Translations under genes and position numbers: made by a program
Shown here: positions 3,859 to 62,802 of the stretch, piece after piece
Position numbering within the stretch: the first letter of the stretch is position 1
How the letters are laid out: every line of letters begins with the position of its first letter
The notes under the pieces: generated by a model
The model's input: only the letters and a program-made list of their open reading frames with translations
Told to the model about the DNA's origin: nothing
Database searches by the model: none
NCBI RefSeq assembly: GCF_026344005.1
Contig: NZ_JAPKNH010000006.1
Span: forward strand, 186,001 to 250,000
Reading direction: 5' to 3'
Length of the DNA: 64,000 bases
DNA from: Kaistia terrae
Lineage (GTDB): Bacteria; Pseudomonadota; Alphaproteobacteria; Rhizobiales; Kaistiaceae

Positions 3859-4050
3859 ATGGCCCTTTTCGACGACGTACCGGCGGAAAAGCCGGTGCCA
3901 CACCGTATCGGCGAGGATCTTTCGCGTCTTTCGATCGACGAACTGACCGACCGGATTGATTTGCTCGAGGGTGAAATCGGGCGATTGCGCGAGGCGATCG
4001 CTGCCAAGACGGCCTCGCGCGCCGCCGCCTCGTCGTTCTTCAAGCCGTGA
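3859..4050 (+). CDS. DUF1192 family small protein
   Basis: The 63-residue product starts MALFDDVPAEKP, contains the amphipathic helix LSIDELTDRIDLLEGEIGRLREAI (about 25-47) and ends ASRAAASSFFKP. This pattern defines the DUF1192 family, short coiled-coil proteins widespread in Alphaproteobacteria with no assigned function. The start at 3859 is preferred over the in-frame ATG at 3847 because a GGAG lies six bases before it and family members begin MALFDD. Just downstream come the CtrA box, the suhB-type sRNA and rcdA, so it neighbours a cell-cycle locus, but it is probably transcribed from its own promoter. Confidence 0.8.
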   Translation: MALFDDVPAEKPVPHRIGEDLSRLSIDELTDRIDLLEGEIGRLREAIAAKTASRAAASSFFKP

Positions 4051-4073
4051 GCGCAGACGCGCTGGGGTTGGTG

Positions 4074-4106
4074 TTAACCATCCATTAAGCTTTCGAGCGC
4101 GTTAAT
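4074..4106 (+). promoter_or_regulatory. CtrA box and promoter for the sRNA at 4110
   Basis: TTAA at 4074-4077 and TTAA at 4085-4088 are separated by exactly seven bases, a perfect match to the CtrA consensus TTAA-N7-TTAA. The site also contains the 8-mer TTAACCAT. A -10-like GTTAAT lies at 4101-4106, placing the box over the -35 region of a start near 4110-4113, the usual geometry of CtrA-activated promoters. It could serve the sRNA directly and perhaps rcdA by readthrough. Binding is inferred, not shown. Confidence 0.65.
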
Positions 4107-4109
4107 CAG

Positions 4110-4199
4110 GAGATCCAGCGATCTGGATGTGAGTGATACTCCTCTGTTGGTCTCCTCCCTCTATCGCCTCCAAGAGCCGTTCTTCACGGCTCTTTTTTT
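4110..4199 (+). ncRNA. suhB/alpha-r14-type small RNA with anti-Shine-Dalgarno motifs
   Basis: A transcript of about 90 nt can be read here. Hairpin 1 is ATCCAG-CGAT-CTGGAT (4113-4128). A roughly 43-nt unpaired stretch follows, rich in CUCC motifs (ACTCCTCT, GTCTCCTCCCTC, GCCTCCA). It ends with a 9-bp terminator (4172-4180 with 4186-4194) and a run of Ts. No open reading frame fits. Pyrimidine-rich CCUCC motifs in single-stranded regions plus a terminal hairpin characterise the alphaproteobacterial suhB motif and the related alpha-r14 (NfeR1-like) trans-acting sRNAs, which pair with ribosome binding sites. That it is an sRNA is well supported; the family name is from memory of the motif. Confidence 0.65.
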
Positions 4200-4291
4200 G
4201 ACTTCCGTCTCCGCAGCGGGCAAAATCCGGAAAAATTGCGCCCCGTTGGCACCCTGATGGGCAAGCGCGGCTGCGCAGCGGAATCGCTTTC

Positions 4292-4819
4292 ATGACAGAC
4301 GATAGCCCCAGGCCAATCGAGCCGCCGGTCGTTTTCGGCAGGCGGTTTGCATTTTCCGACACTTTCCGGGGACTCTTCCGGGAGGGGATGCAGCTTGTCG
4401 AAGAGACCGCCGCTTATCTCGACGGCGATGGTCGTGACGAGTCGCGCGACCTGGAACGCGCCGCCTCGCTCACCTACGCCACCGAATCGATGCGCCTGAC
4501 CACGCGACTGATGCAGATCGCGTCATGGCTGTTGCTGCAGCGCGCCGTCAACGAAGGCGAGATGACGTTCGAGCAGGCGGGGGCGGAAAAGGCCAAGGTG
4601 CGTCTGCGCGGGTTCGGCACCATGACCGAAGGGCCGAACTGGGAAGATCTGCCGATACGGCTGCGCGAACTGATCGAGCATTCCGTGCGCCTGCAGGAGC
4701 GCGTCATCCGGCTCGACGACGCCATGTACAACGCCGCCAATGCCGAACAGCCGGCCGAGAACCCGGTCAGCCTGCAGCTTGGCCAGTTGGCGCGCGCCTT
4801 CGGCTCCGGCAGCGAATAG
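4292..4819 (+). CDS. rcdA: Protease adaptor RcdA (DUF1465), CtrA degradation
   Basis: The 175-residue product is an all-helical protein of the DUF1465 family. It includes the conserved core FAFSDTFRGLFREGMQLVEE (about residues 16-36) and RLTTRLMQIASWLLLQRAVNEGEMTFEQA (about 70-98). In Caulobacter RcdA helps deliver CtrA to ClpXP at the G1-S transition, with CpdR and PopA. Here ctrA and chpT lie 57 kb away in the same window. The tail after residue 150 is low in hydrophobic residues, as in known RcdA. An upstream CtrA box and terminated sRNA lie between this gene and DUF1192. No good Shine-Dalgarno precedes the ATG at 4292. Confidence 0.82.
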   Translation: MTDDSPRPIEPPVVFGRRFAFSDTFRGLFREGMQLVEETAAYLDGDGRDESRDLERAASLTYATESMRLTTRLMQIASWLLLQRAVNEGEMTFEQAGAEKAKVRLRGFGTMTEGPNWEDLPIRLRELIEHSVRLQERVIRLDDAMYNAANAEQPAENPVSLQLGQLARAFGSGSE

Positions 4820-16618: not shown

Positions 16619-16796
16619 TCCCGCCCGTCGGTCGGACGGAACCGATCCGCCGCTGTCGCTCCTGGATACGTAGCGAGCCCGGTCAAAAAAATCTTCCTGC
16701 GCACATTGCGTCGAGATCTCTGGCTATGCGGCCCGCGGTTCCCTATATTTGATCTCGGCGAGACTGCGCGGTGCGACAGGAGCTCACAATTCCCCG

Positions 16797-16910
16797 GGGC
16801 CTTATCGATCCAAACGGGGGCTGTCCCTGACTGGAGCCGTGGTTCCGGACATATGGCTCCCACCTACACTGTAGGTTCCCTGGGATCGATCACTCCATCG
16901 GCCCATCGTG
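16797..16910 (+). ncRNA. ssrS: 6S RNA
   Basis: The RNA lies between zapA and fau, the classic 6S location. The sequence folds as a closing stem ATCGATCC (16804-16811) with GGATCGAT (16883-16890), extended by GGGCC/GGCCC (to 16904). There is a large internal bubble and an apical stem GGAGCC/GGCTCC (about 16833-16860). The 3' side of the bubble holds a small hairpin CCTAC-ACT-GTAGG followed by TTCCCTGGG, as in other 6S RNAs. It mimics an open promoter and holds sigma-70 polymerase in stationary phase. A -10-like TATATT sits at 16744-16749; the true 5' end could therefore be nearer 16756. Confidence 0.72.
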
Positions 16911-16948
16911 GCTCGCCACCTTATCCTTCCTTCCAGCTTTCCGTTGCC

Positions 16949-37682: not shown

Positions 37683-37697
37683 TTAATCCGATGTTAA
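37683..37697 (+). promoter_or_regulatory. CtrA box upstream of the outer-membrane protein
   Basis: TTAA (37683-37686), seven bases, TTAA (37694-37697): a perfect TTAA-N7-TTAA match, 78 bp before the ATG at 37775. No clear -10 hexamer follows at the 12-base distance seen at the other two CtrA-box promoters of this window. Confidence 0.6.
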
Positions 37698-39154: not shown

Positions 39155-39309
39155 GCCCATTTGTCGCGGTTTGAGCGCGCTCGGTCCGGCGCGGCAGCCC
39201 TGCACGGCCCCTGCAACTCCAATCCGGGGTGGCGTCCAAGGCGACGCCCGGCGGCTTGAAAGGTCGCTTGCATTCCGTCCGGCCGAGGCGTAAACGCGTC
39301 GGCGGGACA

Positions 39310-39350
39310 CGCCTCCCCAACGAGGCGCTTACTATCTGTGAGGATAGACT
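39310..39350 (+). promoter_or_regulatory. serC leader RNA motif
   Basis: Two hairpins directly precede the serC start: CGCCTC-CCCAAC-GAGGCG (39310-39327) and CTATC-TGTGAG-GATAG (39332-39347). The ribosome binding site GAGGA (39340-39344) lies inside the second one, and the ATG is at 39351. An alphaproteobacterial serC motif with two hairpins just before this gene is known; match to it is by position and shape from memory. Masking of the Shine-Dalgarno site suggests control of translation initiation. Confidence 0.65.
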
Positions 39351-40523
<1,173 letters not shown>

Positions 40524-50077: not shown

Positions 50078-50220
50078 GGCCTTTCCCCATTTCGAGAAGA
50101 CACTTCTGAGACCGACTGTCGCCTTATCCTAGCAGATTTGGCTCCGGCGTTCACGTTGCCGCCTGAGCCGGCTTGTCGCTCCTCTTGCGTCCTCAGCCGT
50201 CCTCGGTCATGTTCCTTTCA

Positions 50221-50310
50221 TTCCGAGGGGTGTTCGCGGACGCGAGCTGAGATGGCCTAGGGCCGAACCCTTCGAACCTGATCCGGGTCATGCCGGCGAA
50301 GGGACGGGAA
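50221..50310 (+). promoter_or_regulatory. TPP riboswitch (THI element)
   Basis: The conserved blocks are present in order: GAGGGGTG, GAGCTGAGAT, GAACCCTTCGAACCTGATCC and GGGTCATGCCGGCGAAGGGA. P1 is formed by TTCCG at the start and CGGGAA at the end. Thiamine pyrophosphate binding usually switches off genes for thiamine synthesis or transport. The downstream genes are a two-gene transporter (ThiX, ThiY), which agrees. Confidence 0.93.
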
Positions 50311-50355
50311 GCTGGTTCACGACGTTTGCTCGTTCCCATTGCTATAGCGCATGGC

Positions 50356-56853: not shown

Positions 56854-56928
56854 GCGCCCTTCGTCTAGCGGTCAGGACGTCGCCCTCTCACGGCGAAAGC
56901 AGGGGTTCGATTCCCCTAGGGCGCACCA
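56854..56928 (+). tRNA. tRNA-Glu (anticodon CTC)
   Basis: The 75-nt gene folds as a full cloverleaf. The acceptor GCGCCCT pairs with AGGGCGC, and the encoded ACCA tail follows. The D-loop is TCTAGCGGTCAGGAC. The anticodon arm is TCGCC-CTCTCAC-GGCGA with anticodon CTC (reads GAG). The T-arm is AGGGG-TTCGATT-CCCCT. The loop, stem lengths and identity elements fit tRNA-Glu. CCA is encoded in the gene. Confidence 0.96.
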
Positions 56929-62100: not shown

Positions 62101-62802
62101 TTATGCGCTTGCGCGCATCTGGGCTTCATCGGGCTCGCGCAGCACGTAGCCGCGGCCCCAGACGGTCTCGATGTAGTTGAGGCCCTGGGTCGCCGTCGCC
62201 AGCTTCTTGCGCAGCTTGCAGATGAAGACGTCGATGATCTTCAGTTCGGGCTCGTCCATGCCGCCATAGAGATGGTTCAGGAACATCTCCTTGGTCAGGG
62301 TCGTGCCCTTGCGGAGCGAAAGCAGCTCCAGCATCTGGTATTCCTTGCCCGTCAGATGCACGCGGCTGCCATGAACCTCGACCGTCTTGGTGTCGAGATT
62401 GACCGTCAACTCGCCGGTGATGATGACCGACTGGGCGTGGCCCTTCGAGCGGCGCACGATCGCATGGATGCGCGCAACGAGCTCGTCCTTGTGGAAGGGC
62501 TTGGTCATGTAGTCATCGGCGCCGAAGCCGAGGCCGCGCACCTTGTCCTCGATTCCGGCAAGACCGGAGAGGATCAGGATCGGCGTCTTCACCTTGGCGA
62601 CGCGCAGCGACCGCAGAACCTCGTATCCCGACATGTCGGGCAGGTTCAGGTCGAGCAGAATGATGTCGTAATCGTAGAGCTTGCCGAGATCGACACCCTC
62701 TTCGCCGAGATCCGTCGTGTAGACGTTAAAATTCTCGGACTTGAGCATCAACTCGATGCTCTGCGCCGTGGCGCTGTCGTCCTCGATCAGCAGAACTCGC
62801 AT
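62101..62802 (-). CDS. ctrA: Cell-cycle response regulator CtrA
   Basis: CtrA is the master OmpR/PhoB-type regulator that controls division, flagella and replication in many Alphaproteobacteria. The 233-residue product starts [20 protein letters not shown], has the phospho-acceptor Asp51 in [12 protein letters not shown], Lys in TKPFHKDEL, and a winged-helix DNA-binding domain (about 125-230) with [49 protein letters not shown]. The C-terminus ends ASA; small end residues are part of ClpXP degradation signals in CtrA. fliJ lies divergently. GANTC and half-CtrA sites precede it. RcdA and ChpT are in the same window. Confidence 0.97.

Follow-up and report, generated by a model that had tools for sequence, protein, structure and literature searches.

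A conserved CtrA-type box precedes a small RNA gene related to BjrC1505 beside rcdA in Kaistia terrae

The gap between the DUF1192 gene and rcdA in Kaistia terrae almost certainly contains a separate small RNA (sRNA) gene, which its sequence relates to BjrC1505, an Rfam family of sRNAs from Hyphomicrobiales. The explanation that best covers the locus as a whole, and which we consider likely, is that of an independent BjrC1505-type sRNA gene which is activated by CtrA, the master cell-cycle regulator of alphaproteobacteria, and acts in trans. The window refers here to the whole stretch of DNA analysed (64,000 nucleotides of contig NZ_JAPKNH010000006.1), and Kaistia coordinates are positions within it. 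The anatomy of the locus, the family relationship, the conserved promoter box, the RNA structure and the synteny are established by analysis of the sequence.

All features of the locus lie on the + strand. Upstream is the DUF1192 gene (3859..4050; PF06698, 79.5 bits, cut-off 25.5) and downstream is rcdA (4292..4819), identified by PF07323 (198.8 bits), the DUF1465 domain of RcdA, the adaptor of CtrA proteolysis; its closest relative among the named genomes is the RcdA of Kaistia defluvii (92% identity). Between the two genes are a CtrA-type box, TTAACCATCCATTAA, with a perfect TTAA-N7-TTAA (4074..4088), recognised by motif match and by its conserved placement 5′ of the RNA, and a -10-like GTTAAT (4101..4106) which starts 12 bases past the box, is seen in the letters and coincides with a weak conserved block of the family. 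These are followed by the sRNA gene of approximately 90 nt (4110..4199), delimited by covariance matches and with a predicted start at about 4110-4114. The gene has a hairpin SL1 (4113..4128, ATCCAG-CGAT-CTGGAT, six pairs in the window copy), recognised from the letters and from SL1 of the family, an anti-Shine-Dalgarno-like stretch CTCCTCCC visible in the letters (4152..4159) and an intrinsic terminator of nine pairs followed by T (4172..4199), the corresponding helix being 94.6% paired in the family. Its 3′ end lies 92 nt before the start of rcdA. The fold of 4108-4199 has a z of -3.02, with 3 of 200 shuffles equally good, and the compact terminated gene of the preliminary description, with its box, -10-like element, hairpin and strong terminator, is confirmed in each of these parts. 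The gene for the presumed regulator, ctrA, is found in the same window (62104..62802, - strand), its product having response-regulator domains and 82% identity to the Caulobacter CtrA query.

At Rfam gathering thresholds the window has four matches, none of them at the sRNA locus, these being 6S RNA (16758-16917), the serC leader (39300-39352), a TPP riboswitch (50216-50321) and a tRNA (56854-56925). With relaxed thresholds, the best match at the locus is BjrC1505 (RF02356) at 4068-4199, aligned over its full length (model positions 1-140 of 140; E-value 1.5e-6 for the 401 bases searched and 4.9e-6 for the genome), and this is the sole match to the model in the Kaistia genome. Its score of 41.2 bits is under the gathering cut-off of 50, and the window RNA is a diverged, sub-threshold relative of BjrC1505, not a member by Rfam's rule. 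The preliminary description had assigned the RNA to the suhB type, and a suhB/MmgR sRNA does have a CCUCCCU stretch and a terminator in common with it. However, the covariance model of that family (RF00519) gives just 23.7 bits (E-value 0.0084), under its cut-off of 41, with BjrC1505 reaching its full-length match in the same search, and the related copies have a BjrC1505-type neighbourhood. Membership of suhB/MmgR was rejected on this score, and we consider that reading scarcely credible. No function for BjrC1505 was found in the literature searched, full text included (most subscription papers lie outside the search), where one paper has the name as a table entry. At its 5′ end the RF02356 consensus reads UUuAC-N6-UUaac, and the curated RNA would thus seem to contain its own promoter. 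Model positions 1 to about 40 apparently treat a CtrA-type promoter as folded transcript, and this boundary may need revision.

Related loci were collected from the RcdA side: named genomes have 519 places that encode RcdA, of which the best 80 were taken, with three loci added from a plasmid collection (S. meliloti Ak57, Shinella and Methylobacterium; L112, L113 and L114). The 83 upstream regions yielded 56 segments with a T run after CTCCC or CCTCC, or 57 with the window; removal of two misfits (L017, L080) and of duplicates left 53, of which 44 were aligned for a model termed R1, all segments starting 3′ of the box. With R1, 73 of the 80 named loci have the RNA before rcdA, always on the rcdA strand; 40 of the 73 had served for training and 33 had not. 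The window (4110-4199, 66.4 bits) and the three added loci are also positive, all four being training sequences, which brings the total to 77 loci. Together with the 30 best RF02356 loci, 28 of which have an RcdA match within the fetched stretch, they give 107 copies, and in 104 of these a co-directional rcdA begins 66-358 nt past the RNA. R1 has no match at seven of the 80 named loci (L003, L006, L011, L037, L068, L069 and L080), although terminator-like remains are present in L003, for which just 321 nt were available 5′ of rcdA, and in L011. The sRNA is absent from the Kaistia-type loci L003 (before 322; RcdA 90% identical) and L006 (before 2501), so it is dispensable there, and since L003 retains terminator-like remains and the rcdA promoter described below, decay of the RNA seems to be under way in parts of the lineage.

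Of 61 genomes of K. terrae and relatives, 51 match RF02356 itself, 44 of them over the cut-off; so do 166 of 199 genomes of the order (138 over the cut-off) and 25 of 240 class-wide genomes (11 over the cut-off), the 25 including K. terrae and one other genome of the order. The model has no match in any of the 14 control genomes of each survey, a Caulobacter genome being among them, or, with stricter filters, in five of 13 further genomes of the genus. Copies are also found in other orders with no RcdA near (L222 1539-1630, L223 1565-1657 and L225 1553-1644); by eye these precede a sulfhydrylase-like ORF, and each has a perfect TTAA-N7-TTAA upstream.

The pattern TTAA-N7-TTAA is a published CtrA motif (PMC12403871). 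It occurs at two places in the window and at none in 100 shuffles, and at 17 places in the 5.59-Mb genome against 24 for a reversed control pattern; it is rare, yet without genome-wide enrichment. By arithmetic from the genome count, the chance of finding one within a given 50-nt stretch is about 1.5e-4. The second perfect copy in the window, TTAATCCGATGTTAA (37683-37697), sits approximately 210 nt past a GlmM-like ORF, as judged by eye.

As R1 was built without the box, the 77 RcdA-found loci, the window included, provide a fair test of it. A perfect box lies at -38 to -34 of the R1 start in 53 of them, and a box matching 7 or 8 of the 8 letters in 71, against means of 0.06 and 0.55 (maxima 2 and 4) in 200 rounds of dinucleotide shuffling of the same 60 nt; the loci are mutually related and not independent, many being from Microvirga and Pleomorphomonas. 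Paired TTAA motifs occur at spacing 7 in 53 loci; every other spacing between 4 and 11 is seen in one locus at most. In the 94 sequences possessing a site of at least 7 letters, a selection to which the high half-site values are partly due, the spacer varies (0.07-0.91 bits), and at constant distance past the box comes a weaker -10-like block. Box and block are set at a constant distance from the first hairpin but not from rcdA. Each of the 13 copies without adjacent rcdA is preceded within 60 nt by a site of at least 7 letters; six of these sites are perfect, and their positions spread from -20 to -50. Among random 60-nt windows of the loci, 100 of 5300 have such a site. Two of the 13 copies (L028 and L236) have rcdA 1.1-1.5 kb off, and since 12 of the 13 came from the box-covering Rfam model they are supporting evidence only. 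The ctrA gene is present in 27 of the 30 genomes searched, the three misses being assemblies 67-88% complete. The proposal that the box is a promoter element of a separate sRNA is thus upheld by its conserved, fixed place upstream of the RNA in relatives, which renders CtrA control well supported by sequence and apparently family-wide, and we consider CtrA control of the sRNA very likely.

The fold of a single member (L027) supplied the family structure, which was scored on the 44-row alignment, where 89.0% of cells are paired (84.3 in shuffles), 52 cells are doubly changed (14.0 in shuffles, sd 3.5) and covariation is 0.228, against 0.149 in shuffles and 0.055-0.092 for slid structures, over which a structure drawn from one member has an advantage. 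SL1 is 94.5% paired with both-side changes in four of its five pairs, SL3 is the weakest hairpin (76.8% paired), and RNAalifold on its own retained just SL1 and the terminator. In this modelled structure the family possesses three hairpins and a terminator, with covariation. The loop of SL3 in the family fold contains GCCUCCCU, and of the 107 copies examined, 97 have CUCCC, which predicted folds leave over 70% unpaired in 87. In the window copy, SL1 and the terminator are present, SL2 is short and SL3 is not clear. The CCUCC-rich stretch was originally described as unpaired; it is indeed present, but folding predictions with different assumed 5′ ends leave CUCCUCCC just 29-54% unpaired, which makes "unpaired" doubtful for the Kaistia copy.

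From these features we infer CtrA binding and activation, the ends of the Kaistia transcript, trans action and the existence of targets. CtrA most likely binds TTAA-N7-TTAA, covering the -35 region, and most likely activates transcription of the sRNA from about 4110-4114, and the transcript would stop at its terminator, upstream of rcdA. The sRNA would then act in trans, its CCUCCC stretch probably pairing with ribosome-binding sites of mRNAs, in which case activation by CtrA would also entail post-transcriptional repression.

With respect to targets, the preliminary description had suggested feedback on the CtrA pathway, with the rcdA, ctrA and fliJ leaders as candidate targets. Cognate pairing is no better than shuffled with 104 rcdA leaders (mean z -0.11, 6 below -2), with 26 ctrA leaders (mean z -0.25, 3 below -2; split G027 pieces excluded) or with 29 of 30 gcrA leaders, one start not being found (mean z +0.32, none below -2). 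Feedback by pairing was rejected on these results, and sRNA feedback on CtrA proteolysis is speculation. By raw duplex energy ctrA ranks 5th of the 54 open frames of the window, a rank which is discounted because the comparative leader test fails. Allowing at most one mismatch, the complement of the conserved stretch has 62 matches listed in 61 genomes against 4 for the reversed control, of which a manual count places 33 inside the sRNA gene and the other 29 outside it; of six match loci inspected, one (L159) is the sRNA gene, and the other five show no ribosome-binding site as judged by eye from open frames. Codon usage is our guess for the excess over the control. The pattern AACAGGGAGGC-N2-9-ATG gives 34 rows in 29 of 121 genomes (control 2), with one place occurring twice and two in the sRNA gene, and among its 30 loci just one pair of encoded proteins is related (25% identity). 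Neither pattern search brings out a recurrent target gene. As for the suggested anti-Shine-Dalgarno repression, most related copies expose CUCCC in predicted folds; pairing with the rcdA, ctrA and gcrA leaders is unsupported. The mechanism is proposed from sequence and predicted accessibility, and on balance the case for trans action through CCUCCC is evenly poised.

The locus has a probable counterpart in Sinorhizobium meliloti. The sRNA Sm84 (2986421-2986520 of strain 1021) is encoded on the + strand between the + strand genes SMc03988 and SMc03989 (PMC2573895, PMC2873474); it was detected by Northern blot (approximately 80 nt) and microarray, is up on phosphate starvation, and its authors found no conserved regulatory sites upstream of the loci they studied (PMC2573895). 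RNA-seq gives 100 nt for Sm84/SmelC671 (PMC2873474). In S. meliloti Ak57, the gap between DUF1192 and rcdA has two perfect boxes, one before the sRNA (L112 2165-2179) and one before rcdA (L112 2339-2353), and an R1 match of 103 nt, where RF02356 scores just 27.2 bits against its cut-off of 50. By locus numbering, SMc03988 and SMc03989 presumably flank this same gap, and with strand order and the distance to 6S RNA this indicates that Sm84/SmelC671 is probably the S. meliloti copy; since that distance differs (12.8 kb in Ak57, 14.2 kb in strain 1021), the identity is kept at probable. The Ak57 record used (CP090106.1; L112, L115, L219) is a 3.7-Mb "plasmid pSymB" with rcdA, 6S and cpdR1 that looks like a mislabelled chromosome. 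No prior report linking the sRNA with CtrA and rcdA, or Sm84 with CtrA, was found in the accessible text of the literature searched, most subscription papers lying outside it.

The strict synteny with rcdA on the same strand could also mean that the RNA is an attenuated 5′ leader of rcdA, that is, one CtrA-driven transcript mostly ending at 4199, with read-through as the rcdA mRNA and no trans role. A second CtrA-like site between the sRNA and rcdA is perfect in 10 of 104 loci and has at least 7 letters in 51 (2.96 in shuffles), so rcdA is likely to be a CtrA target itself in about half of the loci; the other 53 have no second site of this quality, as such a leader would allow. In the window the best such site has 4 of 8 letters, and Kaistia rcdA is probably not a CtrA target in this way. 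It probably has a promoter of its own, TTGACT-N17-CAAAAT (4198..4226), which starts inside the T tract of the sRNA and is kept in all five aligned Kaistia-type loci, among them L003, which has lost box and RNA. This speaks against a leader, as does the persistence of a CtrA-type site in copies away from rcdA, and the conservation of the hairpins and CCUCCC loop exceeds the needs of a terminator. In S. meliloti, moreover, CtrA ChIP-seq shows a site upstream of rcdA but rcdA is unchanged on CtrA depletion (PMC4433202). Overall, we regard the leader as unlikely.

Alternatively, the box could serve mainly rcdA or another factor, the sRNA arising from an unrelated promoter or by processing of the DUF1192 mRNA. 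In agreement with this, rcdA has been predicted to be under CtrA control in a comparative study (PMC2877005) and bound in the ChIP-seq study (PMC4433202), and sm84 is annotated with a sigma-70 promoter (PMC2573895). However, box and -10-like block track the first hairpin and not rcdA, and boxes persist where rcdA is not adjacent, which leaves this alternative improbable. A box that is the promoter of the sRNA could explain why S. meliloti CtrA is bound ahead of rcdA while rcdA expression does not respond to it, a simple account of the puzzle of a ChIP signal without CtrA-dependent rcdA expression (PMC4433202), and part of the predicted rcdA-CtrA signal may be the sRNA promoter (PMC2877005). 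The several rcdA transcription starts and possible CtrA site reported in three agrobacteria (PMC10469942) would fit with two promoters.

Returning to the CtrA-activated sRNA gene, we lean towards a wider reading in which BjrC1505 would be an order-wide CtrA-regulon sRNA of Hyphomicrobiales, usually single-copy and beside the gene for the CtrA-proteolysis adaptor, by means of which CtrA would repress mRNAs post-transcriptionally; in many species the "CtrA site" that earlier regulon predictions gave to rcdA would be the promoter of this sRNA, alone or in addition. If true, symbionts, pathogens and environmental species would have an RNA layer in common within their CtrA networks.

To our knowledge, CcnA of Caulobacter is the only CtrA-linked sRNA promoter known. 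Like the window RNA, CcnA of C. crescentus has an upstream CtrA box, and its C-rich loop acts on ribosome-binding sites (PMC8959179); unlike it, CcnA sits at the replication origin and targets ctrA and gcrA, whose leaders gave no sign of pairing here. The rhizobial sRNAs EcpR1 and GspR of Sinorhizobium also have cell-cycle ties, but their loci differ, being beside divK-pleD and between SMc03844 and SMc03845 respectively, and the accessible text names a CtrA promoter for neither (PMC4414408, PMC5928217). With suhB/MmgR (RF00519) the strong terminator is shared along with the C-rich stretch, but the hairpins differ. Sm84/SmelC671 resembles the window copy in its 100 nt, + strand and two + strand flanking genes, and differs in that no CtrA site is named for it in the accessible text of its authors. 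The closest Rfam family is BjrC1505 (RF02356), to which the window copy corresponds in its full-length match, the box-like 5′ end of the model, hairpin SL1 and a short SL2, a C-rich stretch, terminator and rcdA neighbourhood, and from which it departs in its sub-cut-off score, changed CCUCCC region and unclear third hairpin.
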